Below, in pieces: positions 3,797 to 14,115 of a stretch of DNA of 32,745 bases (positions are counted from its first letter, which is position 1; each line of letters opens with the position of its first letter). The notes under the pieces are model-generated. The model was given only the letters and a program-made list of their open reading frames with translations, was not told the origin of the DNA and did no database searches. The stretch covers positions 1-32,745 of the forward strand of contig JAHECY010000043.1 of the NCBI GenBank assembly GCA_024641505.1, given 5' to 3'. A program made the position numbers and the translations under genes. The stretch comes from Gammaproteobacteria bacterium (GTDB taxonomy: Bacteria > Pseudomonadota > Gammaproteobacteria > SG8-11).

Positions 3797-3898
3797 ACAA
3801 TTTTTTAAAGCATGAGGTAAATCCGGGATATTGCGCTCATTTCCCCCAGGGCATTGGACTATACTGGAAATAAGCCACTGTGAGGAAGGATGTGTGTC

Positions 3899-4084
3899 AT
3901 GACCGACAAACTCAAACCCGAGGTGCCAGAACTCATCGCCTGTGATATTTGTCTGGAGGAAATTCCCAGTACCGCCGCCCAGAGCATGGAGTCGGACGAC
4001 TATGTGTACCATTTCTGCGGCATCCACTGTTATGAGCAATGGCAGCAACAAAGCAAGCAACAGAAAAAAGAAGACGTTGACTGA
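3899..4084 (+). CDS. Small four-cysteine protein, DUF3330-like
   Basis: This 61-residue protein contains CDIC (Cys15, Cys18), then EEIPSTAA, DDYVYHFCG (Cys40) and HCYEQW (Cys44), followed by a Gln/Lys-rich tail. The C-x2-C...C-x3-C spacing suggests a small treble-clef or TRASH-like zinc site. The pattern of an acidic patch followed by YHFCG fits DUF3330 as I remember it. Function is unknown. An ATG nine bases upstream (3890) is also in frame; the later one was preferred because GGAAGG sits at a normal distance. The gene lies about 100 bp after psd and converges with epmA, ending 6 bp from its stop. Confidence 0.72.
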   Translation: MTDKLKPEVPELIACDICLEEIPSTAAQSMESDDYVYHFCGIHCYEQWQQQSKQQKKEDVD

Positions 4085-4090
4085 ACCCGG

Positions 4091-5059
4091 CTAGGCGCAC
4101 TCCCAGGGGAACGGCAAAACCTGATCGATGTGCGCGTACTCCCCCGCCAGCATGCACAGGCGATCGATACCGATGGCAACGCCGGCACAGGGCGGCAAGC
4201 CATGCGCCAGGGCCGCCACCAGGTGGCTATCCATAGACACGGCGGCTTGCCCGGCCGCCGCGCGGCGTTGTAAATCGCGTTCGAAGCGTTGCCGTTGTTC
4301 CACCGCATCCGTCAGTTCGCAAAATCCATTGCCCAACTCTACGCCGTCGACAAAGACCTCGAAGCGTTGCGCCACGCGCGCATCATCCGCGCGTAGCCGG
4401 GCCAGCGAAGCCTGGGACGCTGGAAAATCATGCACAAACACCAGGCCCTGCCCTTTGAGCCGGGGTTGCAGCAACGCGCCGAACAACAAGTCCAATAACG
4501 CATCCCGATCACCTGCCACCAGGCCTTGCACCTCGCCTTCGGTGCGGATCCATGCCTGATGCAGCTCGTCAAAACTCGCCTGCAGGGGATCGAGTTGCAG
4601 GTACTGCATGAACAAATCCTGGTAGCGTAGTTTTCGGCCGGGTCCGGGATCACGCCAGGCGCCCAATACGCTACGCAACAGTTCTTCGACTTCCGCCATC
4701 AATTGGTGATCGTCATAGCCCACGCGATACCATTCCAGCATCGTGAATTCCGGATTGTGCCAGCGACCCCGTTCGCGGTCGCGAAACACCCGGGCGATTT
4801 GAAAGATGGAGCCACTGCCCGCCGCCAGCAGGCGTTTCATATGAAATTCCGGGGAGGTAATGAGAAATCGCTGCGCCGCGCCGACCGGTACGCGGTAACT
4901 TTCGATATTGGGATCGGTGGTTCCGGCCTGGGACAACAGCGGCGTTTCCACTTCCAGGCATTCCCGAACGGAAAAAAAAGCACGCATCAGGCGCATGATG
5001 CGTGCTCGGGTGTGCAGTGCTTCCAGGTCGGCCGTCGGTTCCCAGGTGGATGCGTTCAT
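4091..5059 (-). CDS. epmA: Elongation factor P--(R)-beta-lysine ligase
   Basis: EpmA (PoxA/GenX/YjeA) is a truncated class II lysyl-tRNA synthetase paralogue that attaches (R)-beta-lysine to a lysine of EF-P. The class II motifs are visible: motif 1 with VETPLL (37-42), motif 2 from about 92 to 112 with FRDRERGRWHNPEF, and motif 3 GVAIGIDRL (about 293-301). The anticodon-binding domain of LysRS is absent, as expected for EpmA, and the 322-residue length is typical. The gene follows efp on the same strand with a 23-bp gap, so the enzyme and its substrate are probably co-transcribed. Confidence 0.95.
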   Translation of the reverse strand: MNASTWEPTADLEALHTRARIMRLMRAFFSVRECLEVETPLLSQAGTTDPNIESYRVPVGAAQRFLITSPEFHMKRLLAAGSGSIFQIARVFRDRERGRWHNPEFTMLEWYRVGYDDHQLMAEVEELLRSVLGAWRDPGPGRKLRYQDLFMQYLQLDPLQASFDELHQAWIRTEGEVQGLVAGDRDALLDLLFGALLQPRLKGQGLVFVHDFPASQASLARLRADDARVAQRFEVFVDGVELGNGFCELTDAVEQRQRFERDLQRRAAAGQAAVSMDSHLVAALAHGLPPCAGVAIGIDRLCMLAGEYAHIDQVLPFPWECA

Positions 5060-5082
5060 GCCGCTCAGGCCCTACGGCGTGC

Positions 5083-5652
5083 TTATTCCTTGGCGCGCGA
5101 GACGTATTCGCCGGTACGGGTATCGACTTTGATGTATTCGCCGGATTCGATGAACAAGGGGACGCGCACCACCGCGCCGGTTTCCAGCTTCGCGGGCTTG
5201 CCGCCGCCGCTGGCGGTGTCGCCGCGCACGCCGGGGTCGGTCTCGGTAATCTGCAGTACCACGAAATTGGGCGGCGTCACAGCGATGGGATTGCCGTTGT
5301 ACAGAGTGACCACGCACATGTCCTGTTCCTTGATCCACTGCGAGGCGTCACCCACGGCGGCGTCGTCCGCGCCGACTTGTTCGAAGGTGGTGGCATGCAT
5401 GAAATGATAGTGCTCGCCGTCGTTGTAGAGATACTGCATGTCCGTATCCACGACGTCGGCGCCTTCCACGGATTCGCCGGATTTAAGGGTACGGTCGACC
5501 ACGCGCCCGGTTTTCAAATTGCGAATCTTGACGCGGGTGAACGCCTGGCCTTTGCCGGGTTTGACGAATTCGCACTCGACAATATTGTAGGGGTCGCCAT
5601 CAAGCATGATTTTCAACCCGTTTCTCAGATCATTAGTACCGTAGTTAGCCAT
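5083..5652 (-). CDS. efp: Translation elongation factor P
   Basis: EF-P binds between the ribosomal P and E sites and relieves stalling at consecutive prolines. The 189-residue protein has the KOW-like domain I with KPGKGQAF at 31-38; Lys34 is the residue modified by EpmA/EpmB. Two OB-fold domains follow, ending with the family-typical [17 protein letters not shown]. Its neighbours are epmA (downstream, same strand) and epmB (divergent), which directly supports beta-lysylation rather than rhamnosylation of this EF-P. A TATGAT box on the minus strand around 5720 could be its -10 element. Confidence 0.97.
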
Positions 5653-5732
5653 GTAATTCCTGTCTTTGGGGAACCCTGCCCCGCTAAAAAATCGAACACA
5701 CCGTGGTGAAAGTGCGTATCATACCGCACACT

Positions 5733-6773
5733 ATGATGCCTTTGCACACCCAAAACCCCGGCTGGCAGCAACAAATGGCGGATGTCGTCACCGATGGCCG
5801 GGAGTTGTGCCGCATTCTGCACCTGGACCCGGCCCGGTTGCAGCCACCCTTGCTGGCCGATTCCGGTTTCACCATGCGCGTCCCCCGGGCCTTTATCAAC
5901 CGCATGGAACCCGGCAATCCCGAAGATCCCTTACTCCTGCAAGTCCTGGCCAGTGCCGTGGAAAATATCCCGGTGGCGGATTTTCACCGGGACCCGGTGG
6001 GCGACACGGCAGCACTGCGGCAACCGGGCCTGCTGCACAAATACCATGGCCGCGTGCTGCTGGTTACCACCGGCGCCTGCGCCGTGCATTGCCGGTATTG
6101 TTTCCGCAGACATTACCCCTACGGCGACGCCGCCACCCGTGGCAACGATACGGCGGCGCTGTTACGCTACCTGCACGATGACACCTCTATTAAAGAGGTA
6201 ATTTTAAGCGGCGGCGATCCTCTGACGTTAAGCGACAATCGTTTGCAACACTTATTAGCGGAGCTGCACAGCGTGCCGCACCTGACGACCTTACGCGTTC
6301 ATACCCGTATTCCCACCATCATTCCCGACCGCATCGGCAACCGGTTTCTCGATATTTTCCGGCACAGCCCCTTGGCCAAGGTCATGGTGGTGCATGTCAA
6401 TCATCCGCGGGAACTGACGGCGCTTGAGCGCGGCCCCTTCCAGGAGTTGCGGGATGCAGGATTTTTCCTGTTGAATCAATCGGTTCTACTTAAAAGAATC
6501 AATGATGACGCCACCACATTGGCGCAACTGAGCGCATCGCTGTTTGACCTGGGGATCCTGCCGTACTACCTGCACCAACTGGACAAAGTACACGGTGCGG
6601 GCCATTTTCAGGTGACGGACGCGGTCGCCGGCGCCATCTACCACGCCCTGGCCTCCCTGGTGCCCGGTTACCTATTACCCAAGTTTGTCCGGGATATCCC
6701 GGGCCAACCCCACAAGACGCTTTACCCATTCCATACTAATGCTTCCCCCGCATCTAAAGCCTGGCCCGCCTAA
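5733..6773 (+). CDS. epmB: EF-P beta-lysylation protein, lysine 2,3-aminomutase family
   Basis: EpmB (YjeK) is a radical-SAM, PLP-dependent aminomutase that converts (S)-alpha-lysine to (R)-beta-lysine for EpmA. The radical-SAM cluster motif appears as GACAVHCRYCFRRH, with cysteines at 116, 120 and 123 counted from the chosen start. Other family segments are RVPRAFINRM, PGLLHKYHGR, LSGGDPL, LLNQSVLL and LPYYLHQLDKVHGAGHF. The start is uncertain: ATG codons at 5733 and 5736 and a GTG at 5703 are in frame, and none has a strong ribosome binding site. The ATG pair aligns best with the length of known EpmB. The gene diverges from efp. Confidence 0.94.
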   Translation: MMPLHTQNPGWQQQMADVVTDGRELCRILHLDPARLQPPLLADSGFTMRVPRAFINRMEPGNPEDPLLLQVLASAVENIPVADFHRDPVGDTAALRQPGLLHKYHGRVLLVTTGACAVHCRYCFRRHYPYGDAATRGNDTAALLRYLHDDTSIKEVILSGGDPLTLSDNRLQHLLAELHSVPHLTTLRVHTRIPTIIPDRIGNRFLDIFRHSPLAKVMVVHVNHPRELTALERGPFQELRDAGFFLLNQSVLLKRINDDATTLAQLSASLFDLGILPYYLHQLDKVHGAGHFQVTDAVAGAIYHALASLVPGYLLPKFVRDIPGQPHKTLYPFHTNASPASKAWPA

Positions 6774-6805
6774 GTCGATATATCTAGCTGTAACATAAGA
6801 ATTTT

Positions 6806-8704
6806 ATGGCTCGTTACCTTACCCATAGCACACGCCATGGGCGTGAGAACTCGGATCAGGACACCGTGGCTGACAGACACAGCATTTCTTTACACCTGCC
6901 TACTCGGCAATCGGCGAAGACGCATTCCGTAGAAACGCGTCCCAAGATCATCGAGAAATGGCTGGAGCAATTACCGCGCGCCAATACCGGCGAATGCGCG
7001 CGTCTGTATTTCGGTTTGTTGCGCGATCTTAATCGAATCGAGATCGCCGACCACGATCGCTTTAAAATACTGGAAATGTGCCTGGAGCCGGGTGAATTTA
7101 TCTACCAGGCGTTGATCAAGCACTATCTGGGCTTGCCATTTCCGTTGTCGGTCAAGAAACAGCAAGTCGCGGTTCTAGCGCGCGAGCTGGAGTGCGAGCT
7201 TGCACTCGGCTACAAAATCATTGTCGAGGACCGCATCAACGGCAAGACTTCCAAGATCGACCGCCACACCTTTCACGTCGCCTTGCACCGGTGCTGCGAA
7301 CATCTCGGCAATGTGCTGTTGCGTTCCTACATGGTCTATATGCAGACACCGCCGCATATCTGGGCGCAACTCAACCGTCTTTATCACTATGCGGAAACTC
7401 ACAAACTGCATCTGGGCGAACTGCGGGATACCGGCTCCAGCATCGAGCAGATATACAAACGCATTTTACTGTTGAAAGCCATCAACCCCAACCGCATGCG
7501 CCAATCCGACATTGTCAAAACCAACACCTTGCTGTTGGACTGGGTCAAATACGCCATGATCGTCCCGGTGACCAATGCCGCTGCCCAGGACGGTTTGTAT
7601 TGCGTGGATCTGACACAAGACGCGCCGCCGGACTATTTCGTCAACAACAGCACCGCTAATCTGCCTGCTCTCCGCCTCATTGACACCGGCAAGATGCTGC
7701 AGCATATTCATGACACGGCCGATCACTACACGCGCTTGAGCAGCGCTGTGGACACCGTCGCCTTTGGCGCGTTGTCACCACACACCCTGCATCAGTTGCT
7801 GGTGACCTGGAGCGGCGGCTCGAAGCGTCATTTCACACGCTCCCACGGCCAGAACAATGTTGAAGTACTCATCGGTCTGACCACGGTGCACCACTTTCTC
7901 ATGGAAGGCGAGCTGACCGCGGATTTGAAAAAACAGGGCGCCAAGGATGTGTTCCGACCCACGGAATCAGGTATTTTCGAAGTGCGTTCCCGCTATAAAT
8001 CCGGAACCGCCGGCTCCGCCAATATCGATATCTGGAATCCCTCGTACACCATCGCCAGCCAGGAACAAGACTACAATATCGACTTCGACAGCCCTGCCGT
8101 GGTAGGTTCCTATCGAGCACAAAGCGAAGCCGCACAAGGCACTAAAAATTATGAAGTCCATATCTGCGCCAGCGTCGACGAGAGCGCCACCGGCTATCGC
8201 CTGGTGTGGATTCCCTGGGAAGGCAAGAAACCGCCACTCAACGTGCATGTGGGTGATCTGGTCGCGGTGCGCAATATGGTGATTGCCGGCATCAATCACT
8301 GGAGCATCGGCGTCATTCGCTGGATAAAAAACTCCGCCAACGAAAAACTTGAAATGGGTGTGGAAAAACTCGGACCCTACGGCATGGCGGCCGGGGTACG
8401 CAGCAAATTGAAAGGCAAGGAAACCGGAGACATCCAGCGCGCCATCATTCTTCCGGCAATCAAGGCGTTGCGGCAACCGGAAACCCTGGTGGTACCGTCC
8501 TTGATCGACGCCACCCGCAGTTTGAAGCTGTACTACCACGGCAAGGACACACCGATAAAATTATCGGCCATCATCGACTCCACCGGATCCATCACCCAGT
8601 ACGAATTCAAGGAAGTGATTTCGGGTAAAGTCGAACCGGGTCACGACGATAACCAGAGTGACTCGCCCCTGGAAAAGTTCAATAACATCTGGAAATCCCT
8701 CTAA
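6806..8704 (+). CDS. Conserved 632-aa protein encoded upstream of the FimX-like gene, possible PilZ-type domain
   Basis: I do not recognise an enzyme. The first 45 residues are polar and probably disordered. From about 46 to 330 the protein looks alpha-helical. From about 335 it becomes beta-rich, starting with GGSKRHFTRSHGQ, where R341xxxR345 resembles the arginine pair of PilZ domains, followed by NVEVLIGLTTVHH. A second beta segment (about 464-525) contains GDLVAVRN, WSIGVIRWIK and LEMGVEKLGP. By gene order it corresponds, as I remember it, to the conserved protein next to fimX in Pseudomonas (PA4958). The fimX-like start is only 21 bp downstream, so the two are very likely co-transcribed. 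A role with FimX in c-di-GMP-dependent surface motility is inference from context. Confidence 0.7.
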   Translation: MARYLTHSTRHGRENSDQDTVADRHSISLHLPTRQSAKTHSVETRPKIIEKWLEQLPRANTGECARLYFGLLRDLNRIEIADHDRFKILEMCLEPGEFIYQALIKHYLGLPFPLSVKKQQVAVLARELECELALGYKIIVEDRINGKTSKIDRHTFHVALHRCCEHLGNVLLRSYMVYMQTPPHIWAQLNRLYHYAETHKLHLGELRDTGSSIEQIYKRILLLKAINPNRMRQSDIVKTNTLLLDWVKYAMIVPVTNAAAQDGLYCVDLTQDAPPDYFVNNSTANLPALRLIDTGKMLQHIHDTADHYTRLSSAVDTVAFGALSPHTLHQLLVTWSGGSKRHFTRSHGQNNVEVLIGLTTVHHFLMEGELTADLKKQGAKDVFRPTESGIFEVRSRYKSGTAGSANIDIWNPSYTIASQEQDYNIDFDSPAVVGSYRAQSEAAQGTKNYEVHICASVDESATGYRLVWIPWEGKKPPLNVHVGDLVAVRNMVIAGINHWSIGVIRWIKNSANEKLEMGVEKLGPYGMAAGVRSKLKGKETGDIQRAIILPAIKALRQPETLVVPSLIDATRSLKLYYHGKDTPIKLSAIIDSTGSITQYEFKEVISGKVEPGHDDNQSDSPLEKFNNIWKSL

Positions 8705-8725
8705 CAGGCGTACTCACGGCGAAAG

Positions 8726-10831
8726 GTGCTGGCACACGTGGAAAAAGATAATGTCGTAAGACTGATAACGATACGCGGCTCCGCCAACGAGTCTGAGACC
8801 CTGGCCGGCATGATGCGCAATGCGGGCTATCCGGTGCGTGCCACGCATATCGAAACCCTGGAAGAGCTGCAGGAAGCCTTCAAGAACCAGGTGTTCGATC
8901 TGGTGCTGTGCGCGGTCAAAACGCCCACGATCAGCGCTCAGCAAGCCCTGGAATATATCGCGAAAACCGGCAAGGACGTGCCCGTGGTGGTCACGGTACC
9001 GCAATACGATGACAAACTGGCCACCCAGATGATGGAAGCCGGCGCCCGGGATGTGGTACCGGAAACCAGCCAGAAACTACTGCTGCTCACCATCACCCGG
9101 GAACTTGGCGATCTCCGGGAACGCCGCCGGCATCGTCAGGCGAATATTATGTTCATGGAAAGCGAAAAGCGTAACCGCGCGCTGATGGAAAGCTCCCGTG
9201 ACGCCATCGCCTATTTGCATGAGGGCATGCATATTTACGTGAACAGTTCCTATCTTGAAATGTTCGGTTATGCGCATCCGGAAGACGTGGAAAGCGTACC
9301 CATCATGGACATGATTTCCGCTGAAGACCAGAAAAGTTTCAAAGAAATCCTCAAGCAGTTGGGTAAGGGCGAAAACCCGGAACATGCTTTTGAATTCAAA
9401 GCCGTGACCGCGGCCGGCAGCACATTTTCCGCGAAAATGGAATTCGCCGCCGCCGCCATCGAAGGCGAACAATGCACCCAGATCATCATTCGCAATACGG
9501 CCAACGAAGGCAGCGCCGAATTGCAGAAAGAACTGGACGCGCTCAAGCGCCAGGACTTGGTGACGGGCCTGTACAATCGCAATTACTTCATGGAAGAGCT
9601 GGAGAAAATCCAGAAAGCCTTCATGGAACACAAAGCCAGTAATTGCGCCTTGATGCAAATAGAGCTGGATCAGTTTAAAAAACTGCAGGAATCCCTGGGA
9701 CCCGCGGCATCGGACTTACTGTTGAGCGATTTCGCTACGGTGCTGAAAAAATGCGTGGGACCCCAGGACCTGGCGGCTCGTTATGCGGGCGACATTTTTA
9801 CCATCATTTATCAACAGAAAGACCTCGCCGCCGTACAGAAAATCGCCGACGCGATAAGAAAGGCAGCGGAAAATCATATTTTCCAGGTCGAGTCGCAGTC
9901 CATCACCTCCACTTGCAGTATTGGCATTTATCGGCTGACGGAACAATCCACGACCACCAAGAATGTGCTTAACTATCTGGATATGGCATGCCGCAAGGCC
10001 CACAAAGACGGCGGCAATCGCGTTCATTTGCATTCCGCCGAAGATGAAATGGCCAAGAACGAGGAAGACCGCAAATGGATTCAGACCGTGCGCGCCGCTT
10101 TGCAGAAAGACTCGTTTCATTTGGCCTTTCAACCCATCGTCAGTCTGCACGCCGAGCCCGGCGAAAAATATGAAGTGCTGTTGCGGTTGAAAAACAGCAA
10201 CGGCAAGGAAATTCCGCCGGTCGAATTTCTGGTACCGGCGGAACAAGCCGGACTGATGCGCGAAATCGACCGCTGGGTGATTCGTCAATGCGCCAAGGTG
10301 TTGGTGAAAAAGCGCAGCGTCAACACGGATCTGCGTTTCTTCATCAAGCTATCCCAGGATTCGCTCAAAGATCCGACCCTGCTGGTATGGATCAGCAAGC
10401 TGCTGAAAGCGGCGCGCTTGCACGGCGACTGTATGGTGTTCGAGGCCAGTGAGCCTTATGTGCTGGCGAGCCTGAAAGAAACCAAGACCTTTGTCAGCGG
10501 CCTGAAACAGCTGCACTGCCTGTTCGCGGTCGATCATGTGGGCGCGGAGTCGGACAATCTCAGCTACCTGAATCATCTTGACGCTTCTTACCTCAAGATC
10601 TCCGGCGCGCTGATTTCCGCCATGCTGGCGGAAGACAGCAAGCGCGATCTGGTAAAAACCATCGCCGAGCGCGGTACCGCGGAACGGCGCAAAACCATCG
10701 CCTCCCACGTGCAGGACCCCAACACCCTCGCCCTGCTCTGGCAATTCGGCGTCAACTTCATCCAGGGAAATTATTTACAGCCGCCCAACGCGGAACTGGC
10801 CTATGACTTCAATGCCAAGGATGAAGACTGA
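8726..10831 (+). CDS. fimX: FimX-like protein: degenerate REC, PAS, degenerate GGDEF, degenerate EAL
   Basis: The domain order is that of FimX, a polar regulator of type IV pili and twitching, and the length is close (701 versus about 690 residues). The receiver-like domain (about 10-130) lacks the phospho-acceptor Asp: the expected position holds Ala63 in DLVLCAVKTP. PAS spans about 150-260. The GGDEF site reads AGDIF (354-358). The EAL site reads EVL (483-485). Further along, the Asn position is Lys541 (FIKLSQ), DD is DH (603-604), and the late E-x-V-E region is SHVQ. The overall EAL fold signature remains, ending in IQGNYLQPP. I infer a c-di-GMP sensor without cyclase or phosphodiesterase activity. 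The start is uncertain: GTG at 8726 or GTG at 8738, the latter having AAAGG upstream. Confidence 0.85.
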   Translation: MLAHVEKDNVVRLITIRGSANESETLAGMMRNAGYPVRATHIETLEELQEAFKNQVFDLVLCAVKTPTISAQQALEYIAKTGKDVPVVVTVPQYDDKLATQMMEAGARDVVPETSQKLLLLTITRELGDLRERRRHRQANIMFMESEKRNRALMESSRDAIAYLHEGMHIYVNSSYLEMFGYAHPEDVESVPIMDMISAEDQKSFKEILKQLGKGENPEHAFEFKAVTAAGSTFSAKMEFAAAAIEGEQCTQIIIRNTANEGSAELQKELDALKRQDLVTGLYNRNYFMEELEKIQKAFMEHKASNCALMQIELDQFKKLQESLGPAASDLLLSDFATVLKKCVGPQDLAARYAGDIFTIIYQQKDLAAVQKIADAIRKAAENHIFQVESQSITSTCSIGIYRLTEQSTTTKNVLNYLDMACRKAHKDGGNRVHLHSAEDEMAKNEEDRKWIQTVRAALQKDSFHLAFQPIVSLHAEPGEKYEVLLRLKNSNGKEIPPVEFLVPAEQAGLMREIDRWVIRQCAKVLVKKRSVNTDLRFFIKLSQDSLKDPTLLVWISKLLKAARLHGDCMVFEASEPYVLASLKETKTFVSGLKQLHCLFAVDHVGAESDNLSYLNHLDASYLKISGALISAMLAEDSKRDLVKTIAERGTAERRKTIASHVQDPNTLALLWQFGVNFIQGNYLQPPNAELAYDFNAKDED

Positions 10832-10852: not shown

Positions 10853-11734
10853 TCAGGCATTGCGCAGCGCGGCGATGCGTTCTTCCAGGGGCGGATGCGA
10901 CATGAACAGGCGCTGGATGCCCAGGGCCTTGGCCCCGGAGATGCCGAATGCGGCCATCTGATCGGGCAAATGGGGTTGTCCCACGGACTGTTGCAGACGT
11001 TCCAACGCGGCGATCATCTTACCTCTGTTACTCAACCGGGCGCCGCCTTGATCGGCGCGGAATTCACGCTGCCGGCTGAACCACATCACGATCATACTGG
11101 CCAGGATACCAAGCACCAGTTGCGCAACTATGGTGGTGATCCAGAACGCCGGGCCATGACCGCGTTCGGTTTTGAATACCACGCGGTCCACCAGATGACC
11201 GATCACCCGGGACAGGAAAAACACAAAAGTATTCACCACCCCCTGAATCAACGCGAGAGTGATCATATCGCCATTGGCGACATGGGTGATTTCGTGTCCC
11301 AGCACCGCTTCCGCTTCGTCACGGGTCATGCGCACCAGCAAACCGCTGCTGACCGCGACCAGCGCGTTGTTGCGGGAGGCGCCCGTGGCAAAGGCGTTGA
11401 CATCGGGCGCGTCATAGATGGCCACTTCCGGCATACCGATACCGGCTTCCTGCGCCTGACGTTTCACGGTTGCCAGCAACCAGGCTTCTGATTCATTTTT
11501 CGGTTGGTCAATAACATGCGCCCCGGTCATGCGCTTGGCGGACCACTTGGAAATCGCCAGCGAAATCAGCGAGCCGGAAAAACCCATCAGTGCGGCAATG
11601 ATCAACAGGTTCTGCAGATCCAGGTTCGTGCCTGTGTTATCAAAATACCCTTGAATACCCAACAAAGACAGGGCGATATTAAGCACGAAGATGACGGCCA
11701 GATTGGTGACGATAAAGAGAAAAACCCGTTTCAT
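10853..11734 (-). CDS. htpX: Membrane zinc metalloprotease HtpX
   Basis: HtpX is an inner-membrane M48 protease that degrades misfolded membrane proteins under envelope and heat stress. Its 293 residues equal the E. coli length. Two N-terminal membrane segments (about 4-26 and 42-62) are followed by the zinc motif HEITH (147-151) in [12 protein letters not shown], two more hydrophobic segments (about 160-180 and 190-212), and the third zinc-ligand region [10 protein letters not shown]. It converges with the fimX-like gene. A 7-bp stem (10847-10865) overlaps its stop codon and might mark the end of both transcripts, though it lacks a T tract. The gene lies downstream of parC with a 107-bp gap. 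Confidence 0.96.
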
Positions 11735-11841: not shown

Positions 11842-14115
11842 CTATTCCGCGGCCCCTTCTTCCGGCCTCAGTATCACTTCCATGCGCTCCACCTGCCGAT
11901 AGCCCTTCTTCAGTTTCAGGCCGCGCTGGCCGCGCTCACCCACGTGTTCTTCCAGTTGCGGATCATCCATCTCCAATGTCCGATTTCCGGCAAACACATT
12001 AATACTTTCCCCCGAGGGAATTGAAACCACCGCGGACATGGTTTCCCGCTTGCCGCCTTTGGCGGGCGGCAGACCGATTATCTTGTTGCCCTTGCCCTTG
12101 TTCATGGCGGGCAATTCCTGCAGTGGGAACACCAGCATATTGCCGTCACTGCTGGTGGCGGCTATCCAGTCGGACTCGTAGTCATAAATCTTCACCGGCG
12201 CCACCGCGCTGGCATCCTTCGGCACATTAAGCAATGACTTACCGTTTTTATTGCGCGTGATCATGTCTTCCAGTTTACAGGCGAATCCATAGCCGGCATC
12301 GCTGGCCACCAAAAACAGGTCCTCCGGCGCGCCCATCATCACGCCCACGAAACTGGCGCCCGCCGGCGGCTTGAAGCGGGCGGCAATGGGTTCGCCGTGG
12401 CCGCGGGCCGAGGGCAAGGTATGCGCGGGAGTGCTGTAGGTGCGGCCGGTGGAATCCATGAAAATCACCAACTGGTTGCTCTTACCCTTGGCGCTGGCAT
12501 GGTAACTGTCCCCGGCCTTGTAACCCATAGTTACGGGATCGACTTCATGCCCCTTGGCGGAACGTACCAGGCCTTTCTTGCTCAACACCACGGTCAAGGG
12601 TTCGGCGGTGATCAACGCGGTTTCCTCGATCGCCTGGGCGGCATCGCGCTTGACGATCGGAGAGCGGCGCACATCGCCGTATTTGTCGGCGTCTTCCTGC
12701 AGTTCTTTTTTGATCAGTGATTTCAGTCGGGCCTTGGACTTCAGGGTTTTTTCCAGATCATCTTTTTCCGCCGCCAGTGCATCCTTCTCACCGCGAATTT
12801 TCATTTCCTCCAAACGCGCCAACTGCCGCAATTTGGTATCCAGAATATAGTCCGTCTGCTCCTCGGTAAGCTTGAAGCGCTTCATCAGCACGGCTTTGGG
12901 ATTTTCCTCCTGCCGAATGATGCGAATCACCTCGTCCAGATTCAAATAGGCGATCAGCAAGCCATCCAGTAAGTGCAGGCGGCGATTCACCTTGTCCAGA
13001 CGGTACTGCAGGCGCCGCTCCACCGTCTGGATACGGAATTCCAGCCATTCCGAAAGAATCATCTGCAGGTTCTTGACCTGCGGTTTGCCGTCGTTGCCGA
13101 TCATATTAAGGTTGACGCGATAGGTGCGTTCCAGATCGGTTACCGCAAACAAATGCCCCATGAGCTCTTCGGCGTCGAGCTTGCCGGCGCGTGGGCTGAC
13201 CACCAGGCGGATAGGATTTTCATGATCAGACTCATCGCGTAAGTCCTCAATCATGGGCAGCTTCTTGGCCTGGATCAGCGCCCCCAACTGCTCCAGCACT
13301 TTGTCGCCGGAGGTCTGGTGCGGCAATGCGGTGATGATGATATCGCCCTGCTCCACCTCATAGCGGGCGCGCATACGGATACTGCCGTTGCCCGTTTGGT
13401 ACATTTGTTTGATTTCGTTGCGCGGGGTAATGATTTCCGCGAATGTGGGATAATCGGGACCCTTGATGAATTTCATCAGGTCCGCCAGCGATGCTTCCGG
13501 ATTATCCAACAGGTGAATACATGCTTGCGTGACCTCCCGCAGGTTGTGGGGCGGAATATCCGTCGCCATACCCACCGCGATGCCGGTGGTGCCGTTGAGT
13601 AAGACATTAGGCAACCGTGCGGGCAAAATCGACGGTTCCTCCAGGGTTCCGTCAAAATTGGGTGTCCAATCCACGGTGCCCTGATCGACTTCCTGTAATA
13701 ATACTTGTGCGTAAGGCGCCAGCCGCGATTCCGTGTAGCGCATCGCGGCGAAGGACTTGGGATTGTCCATGGAACCCCAGTTGCCTTGACCGTCAATCAA
13801 CGGGTAGCGATAGGAGAACGGCTGCGCCATCAATACCATGGCTTCGTAGCACGCGGAATCCCCATGCGGATGAAACTTACCGAGCACATCGCCCACGGTA
13901 CGCGCGGATTTTTTATATTTAGCGGTGGCAACAAGCCCCAGCTCGGACATGGCGTAAACGATGCGGCGTTGCACCGGCTTCAGCCCATCACCAATATTCG
14001 GTAACGCCCGATCCAGGATAACGTACATGGAATATTCCAGATACGCCTTTTCCGTAAACTGGCTCAGCGGCTGTTTTTCAATACCGTCGAAATCGAAAGT
14101 GGTGTTTTTGCCCAT
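11842..14115 (-). CDS. parC: DNA topoisomerase IV subunit A
   Basis: ParC is the DNA breakage-reunion subunit of topoisomerase IV, which decatenates daughter chromosomes. Its catalytic tyrosine is Tyr127 in AMRYTESRL. The quinolone-resistance-determining region reads [12 protein letters not shown], with Ser87 and Glu91 equivalent to E. coli Ser80 and Glu84, both the usual susceptible residues. The 757-residue length and the C-terminal beta-pinwheel region (from about 500) are typical of ParC and shorter than GyrA. Partner parE is upstream on the same strand, but 494 bp of repeat-rich DNA separates them, so parC may have its own promoter. Confidence 0.96.

Follow-up and report, generated by a model that had tools for sequence, protein, structure and literature searches.

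What do two adjacent genes do when one encodes a protein of the FimX type and the other a protein without a match in Pfam? The question is raised by positions 6806-10831 of contig JAHECY010000043.1 (assembly GCA_024641505.1), from a Gammaproteobacteria bacterium of the lineage SG8-11; positions 1-32,745 of the contig, forward strand, are referred to as the window, the whole stretch of 32,745 nucleotides that was analysed. An earlier sequence-only reading had placed a two-gene unit here, and both open reading frames (ORFs) were found in the ORF listing at the positions it gave, on the plus strand: 6806..8704 (ATG start, 632 amino acids), hereafter the partner, and 8726..10831 (GTG start, 701 amino acids as called). 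The locus is very probably a fimW-fimX pair, that is, two receptors of cyclic di-GMP (c-di-GMP) without an enzyme, controlling type IV pilus extension. Directly in hand are the gene identities, the broken catalytic signatures, the PilZ motifs, the predicted PilZ fold, the conservation of the locus, and a PilB gene in the genome. Ligand binding, polar action, and a pilus role of the pair would be as in its relatives.

The second protein has the domain order of FimX, with all domains on the plus strand and above the Pfam cut-offs: a REC-like domain (8801..9061; PF00072, 4.7e-7), a PAS domain (9170..9484; PF13426, 1.5e-8, and PF00989, 6e-8), a GGDEF domain (9551..10021; PF00990, 1.5e-30), and an EAL domain (10085..10786; PF00563, 2.9e-52). 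The REC score is barely over its threshold (30.4 against 30.2 bits). The best solved relative in PDB is Pseudomonas aeruginosa FimX (4j40, 5.1e-81), followed by 5xgb (PA0861, 4e-61). The sequence-only reading had described the catalytic sites of REC, GGDEF, and EAL as all degenerate, and every residue that it quoted was located. Ala63 stands in place of Asp in the REC domain, AGDIF (residues 354-358; 9785-9799) in place of GGDEF, and the EAL domain has EVL (483-485; 10172-10180), Lys541 (10346-10348), and Asp-His (603-604; 10532-10537). An additional broken EAL signature is SHVQ at residues 660-663, where active EAL domains carry EGVE. R487 of EVLLR is kept. These features differ between the 11 FimX-adjacent proteins from outside Pseudomonas that were compared; two of them retain the REC Asp.

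By analogy, the likeliest reading of the FimX-type protein is a pure c-di-GMP receptor and not an enzyme. In the passages of the sources used here, P. aeruginosa FimX uses its EAL domain to bind c-di-GMP and is an interaction partner of PilB (PMC5595344, PMC11656802), and this likewise degenerate protein is reported without cyclase activity (PMC5595344). Weak phosphodiesterase activity has also been reported for it (PMC5595344), and the FimX-type protein of the window might therefore be a weak phosphodiesterase instead. Five EAL residues, E573, E576, D603, K624, and Q680, are still present and would suit such an activity. Set against them are Lys541, His604, and SHVQ, which replace further positions that are catalytic in active enzymes, and a phosphodiesterase role appears improbable.

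The partner carries both c-di-GMP motifs of PilZ domains, RxxxR and [DN]xSxxG, in the form of RHFTR (residues 341-345; 7826..7840) and DESATG (residues 458-463; 8177..8194). Their conservation was counted in an alignment of 122 family members, comprising 92 FimX-adjacent rows (a same-strand FimX-like ORF within 700 bp or less; 80 rows from Pseudomonas-type loci) and 30 others, some of which are FimX-linked yet beyond the distance or strand limit. The RxxxR site, which the sequence-only reading had offered as a possibility, is real: every one of the 92 FimX-adjacent rows has both R341 and R345, and among the 30 others 28 have R341 and all 30 have R345. In the second motif, D or N at position 458 is found in 92/92 FimX-adjacent rows and 28/30 others, Ser460 in 90/92 and 21/30, and Gly463 in 92/92 and 29/30. 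The spacing between the two motifs is 112 residues in the partner and ranges from 34 to 140 across the 122 rows; 67 of the 112 residues have a predicted local distance difference test (pLDDT) score below 50.

An AlphaFold model of the partner (AF2 model m35ee170a825d, built with 35 sequences) had a mean pLDDT of 80.2 and a predicted template modelling (pTM) score of 0.79. It consists of an all-helical N-terminal domain (residues about 40-249; 6923..7552; pLDDT mostly above 90), a PilZ-like barrel (residues 346-535) broken by a disordered stretch (residues 380-446; 7943..8143; pLDDT below 50), and a small C-terminal beta domain without a confident fold (residues 527-603; 8384..8614). The presence of a PilZ-like barrel, on which the sequence-only reading depended, was checked with VIA-align on Foldseek candidates, and the barrel matched PilZ structures with Z scores of 8-12. 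The matches delimit a PilZ domain with insert at residues 339-525 (7820..8380). For the full model, the top matches were MotI (Z 11.4, 88 residues, 2.6 Å), VCA0042 with c-di-GMP (Z 11.2, 86 residues, 2.1 Å), BcsA, and Alg44, with YcgR also among them (Z 9.3-11.4). When the C-terminal half was modelled alone, ranks 1-31 (Z 8.1-11.8) were, as far as could be recognised, all PilZ-domain chains, although not every entry title names the domain, and the first other row had Z 7.3. Other folds were considered for the flanking domains. Matches of the N-terminal helical domain to 14-3-3 or a designed repeat (Z about 8-9) are common for helical bundles and uninformative, and those of the C-terminal beta domain to HtrA1 or a phage connector, obtained with the C-terminal half, were at Z 6-7, and no fold was assigned. 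On its predicted structure, the partner is a PilZ-domain protein whose two ligand motifs are split by a long insert, and it would, by analogy, bind c-di-GMP. The computation supports the proposal that a catalytically inactive protein of the FimX type has a PilZ-domain protein as its neighbour.

The name of the partner was less readily obtained. It had no Pfam match, no NCBIfam match above cut-off, and no PDB sequence match better than E 0.3; no relative emerged from the PDB with the partner sequence, a Pseudomonas copy, or the family profile as query. A single-sequence search of the genome contigs with the partner gave no match, and no part of the family alignment was conserved well enough for scanning. 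The P. aeruginosa FimX sequence was then used to collect Pseudomonas-type fimX loci. The 80 best among 124 relatives were kept, and they come from named Pseudomonas and from a small number of related metagenome-assembled genomes. A family member lay directly upstream of fimX on the same strand in all 80, one of them split into two ORFs; the profile used for this detection contained no rows from the 80 loci. A tree was built from 48 chosen family members, including eight of the 80 Pseudomonas-type copies, and all 23 FimX-adjacent rows in it fell in one 31-row group (support 100/98). This group also held four rows at the epmB locus and four from elsewhere, and the remaining 17 rows, all from elsewhere, fell outside it. 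Over the C-terminal half, the partner is 21-27% identical to eight Pseudomonas copies. On these sequence relationships and its gene position, the partner is a member of the FimW family, FimW of P. aeruginosa being presumably PA4958.

The statement that the partner has no established function can therefore not be upheld. In the passages cited, FimW of P. aeruginosa is a pilus regulator that binds c-di-GMP and is encoded together with FimX (PMC11656802). FimW is also listed among PilZ proteins (PMC12564702), and c-di-GMP is described as driving its dimerisation and its recruitment to the poles (PMC10212136). The partner might instead be a PilZ-fold scaffold that leaves FimX as the sole sensor, as with the stand-alone pilus protein PilZ, which belongs to the superfamily and does not bind c-di-GMP (PMC11656802). 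Among six distant relatives from one family of genomes (f84; loci L169-L174), none keeps both RxxxR arginines in an automatic alignment, as would befit a scaffold. In the partner, on the other hand, both motifs are intact, and they are nearly invariant in the FimX-adjacent rows; FimW itself is described as c-di-GMP binding (PMC11656802, PMC10212136). We consider the scaffold quite unlikely and a c-di-GMP-binding FimW the better account of the partner.

The next question is whether the two genes belong together. The partner has relatives in 22 of the 55 genomes tried first. The phylum gave 42 of 299 genomes (profile) and the class 64 of 140 (E 1e-20); each count includes the window's own genome. 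Around family members, 41 stretches (one Acinetobacter baumannii record and 40 others) were inspected: an epmB-like gene was next upstream in 16, and a FimX-like gene lay downstream within about 1 kb in 14, one of which (L044) starts or stops at a contig end and includes just the terminal part of the partner. The 140 class genomes, each at least 90% complete, were surveyed for both genes. A REC-PAS profile at E 1e-40 was the sole criterion for FimX; hence, shortened copies were missed, such as the one in G026 (L045), and contig ends hide some fimW-fimX pairs. With these limits, 57 FimX-type places were found in 56 genomes, with a family member directly upstream in 30 of the 57; 26 of the 56 genomes were without an adjacent pair. 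Both genes were present in 41 genomes, FimX only in 15, the FimW family only in 23, and neither in 61 (Fisher p 1.2e-7, descent ignored).

In the window, 21 bp separate the fimW stop from the called fimX start, and the description of a two-gene unit stands. It does not extend to all relatives. Among the 30 adjacent pairs, 12 have a gap of about 0.7 kb or more, and 11 of these 12 hold an opposite-strand gene between fimW and fimX (L188-L197, L199). Co-transcription is therefore not general. Ten of the 11 intervening genes were scanned, and all ten match GNAT acetyltransferase families; the eleventh (L193) resembles the others by eye. In the twelfth gapped pair (G038; L198; L054 6123-8249), the fimW frame is broken, and the gene end lies in a separate ORF before fimX.

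These reversed genes, in 11 of 30 adjacent cases, are the natural starting point for a different explanation, namely that slow rearrangement of the epmB/efp and htpX/parC region keeps fimW and fimX close and that the proteins work separately. The one-sided genomes fit this explanation as well: 15 of the 56 FimX-type genomes have no FimW-family match, and 23 of the 64 FimW-family genomes are the reverse. In the passage cited, a review reports no evidence of a functional interaction between FimW and FimX (PMC11656802), and a fimW deletion in PA14 twitches as the wild type (PMC12288467). Against it, presence of the two is associated over the 140 genomes, and fimW and fimX remain neighbours even with a reversed gene between them. 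Proximity without joint function is a serious possibility, though we judge it to fall short of probable. The fimW-fimX pair itself is real and old, and of a kind already known.

The pair could work as follows. The FimW-type receptor would consist of a helical N-terminal domain and a PilZ domain in which a long insert, disordered for the most part, lies between the ligand motifs. The degenerate EAL domain of the FimX-type protein would bind c-di-GMP but not synthesise it, and probably not hydrolyse it. A rise in c-di-GMP, for example after contact with a surface, would load both FimW and FimX with the ligand. FimX would then promote type IV pilus extension by acting on the extension motor PilB, either directly or via PilZ, and FimW would do so by accumulating at the pole.

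Several observations weigh against this account, in addition to the weak activity reported for FimX. Neither partner model had a Foldseek match at E 0.001 or better; the first five rows for the full model, all weaker than 0.001, were BcsA, MrkH, and PlzA chains. The Pfam PilZ model PF07238 had no match to the partner and matched three of 38 family members, weakly (best 0.0034), which may be because the long insert separates the two motifs. The FimX-adjacent rows form no group of their own in the tree: the label needs six changes, two of them forced by well-supported branches, and eight other rows lie inside the group. The orthology with FimW is drawn from other Pseudomonas and gene position, because P. 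aeruginosa's own FimW was outside the 80 loci, the plasmid matches, and the PDB matches compared. Finally, reports on FimW conflict in the passages cited, optimal piliation and twitching needing FimW in one (PMC11656802) and the PA14 deletion mutant twitching normally in the other (PMC12288467).

Compared with P. aeruginosa FimX, the FimX-type protein of the window shares the domain order, the degenerate GGDEF and EAL signatures, and the EVL motif, and Pseudomonas relatives likewise carry a FimW-family gene directly upstream. Three signatures differ from those usual in the 80 Pseudomonas-type copies: AGDIF (GDDVF in 71 of the 80), Lys541 (His in 75), and DH (SQ in 55). The partner shares with P. 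aeruginosa FimW the place upstream of fimX, a PilZ domain, and homology to the gene that occupies this position in other Pseudomonas; its low identity was measured against copies of those other Pseudomonas and not against the P. aeruginosa sequence. With YcgR, MotI, VCA0042, Alg44, and BcsA, the partner has in common the predicted barrel and both ligand motifs, whereas the long spacing between the motifs, the helical N-terminal domain, the extra C-terminal beta domain, and the lack of a Pfam PilZ match set it apart. The FimX-PilZ-PilB complex of Xanthomonas similarly joins a degenerate EAL protein to a PilZ-fold protein, but the partner there is a small PilZ that does not bind c-di-GMP (PMC11656802), whereas that of the window is a 632-residue protein with intact motifs.

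The surroundings of the pair are conserved as well. Upstream lie genes that we take to be epmB (5703..6773, plus strand), efp (5083-5652, divergent), and epmA (4091-5059, divergent), in the same order as around partner-family genes in relatives. Downstream and convergent, on the minus strand, are presumably htpX (10853-11734) and parC (11842-14115), which are near the pair in several relatives too. The true fimX start may be GTG 8738 rather than 8726, the first start of the frame, because VEKDNVVRL at GTG 8738 lines up with the starts of relatives (MERDNTLHL, MDKDQTLRL, and MDNVLRL). The genome is 4.78 Mb in size (the window is contig C92). It gave 25 matches to the EAL domain and 14 to the PilZ domain, and it has a PilB gene above the curated cut-off. 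Three short proteins among the 14 PilZ-domain matches were scanned, with no NCBIfam match.

Family members also occur in other settings. The window's genome holds a very divergent one of 582 amino acids (G000:C17; L168 11154-12899, minus strand) with RMENR and DESPGG, which adjoins TonB and TonB-dependent receptor genes. One locus (L049, G025) has tandem FimW-family genes at the epmB locus (3883-5673 and 5798-7588, plus strand), with no FimX-type match at E 1e-40. In family f84 (genomes of 1.7-3.0 Mb), 20 genomes have one weak profile match each, and the neighbour at L170 is a nitronate monooxygenase gene. These genomes might be Neisseriaceae, which is no more than a guess; the protein could in that case be a PilZ relative lacking its ligand. 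Scans of eight genes next to family members at other places gave a DEAD-box helicase at two loci and all different genes at the rest. A wider view, which we put forward tentatively and regard as doubtful, is that FimW-type proteins are a large family of split-PilZ c-di-GMP receptors, unnamed in Pfam and NCBIfam and with up to five copies per genome. In this proposal, the FimX-adjacent group and FimX would form an ancient two-receptor switch of pilus extension built from different folds, with the insert as a contact or localisation arm.

For the window's genome, the outcome is an ordinary annotation, fimW and fimX. For the family, which Pfam and NCBIfam do not recognise, it provides a tie to a described pilus regulator. 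The fimW-fimX neighbourhood extends beyond Pseudomonas, to the Acinetobacter baumannii record and many genomes of the window's class, and cooperation between FimW and FimX thereby becomes testable in several organisms.

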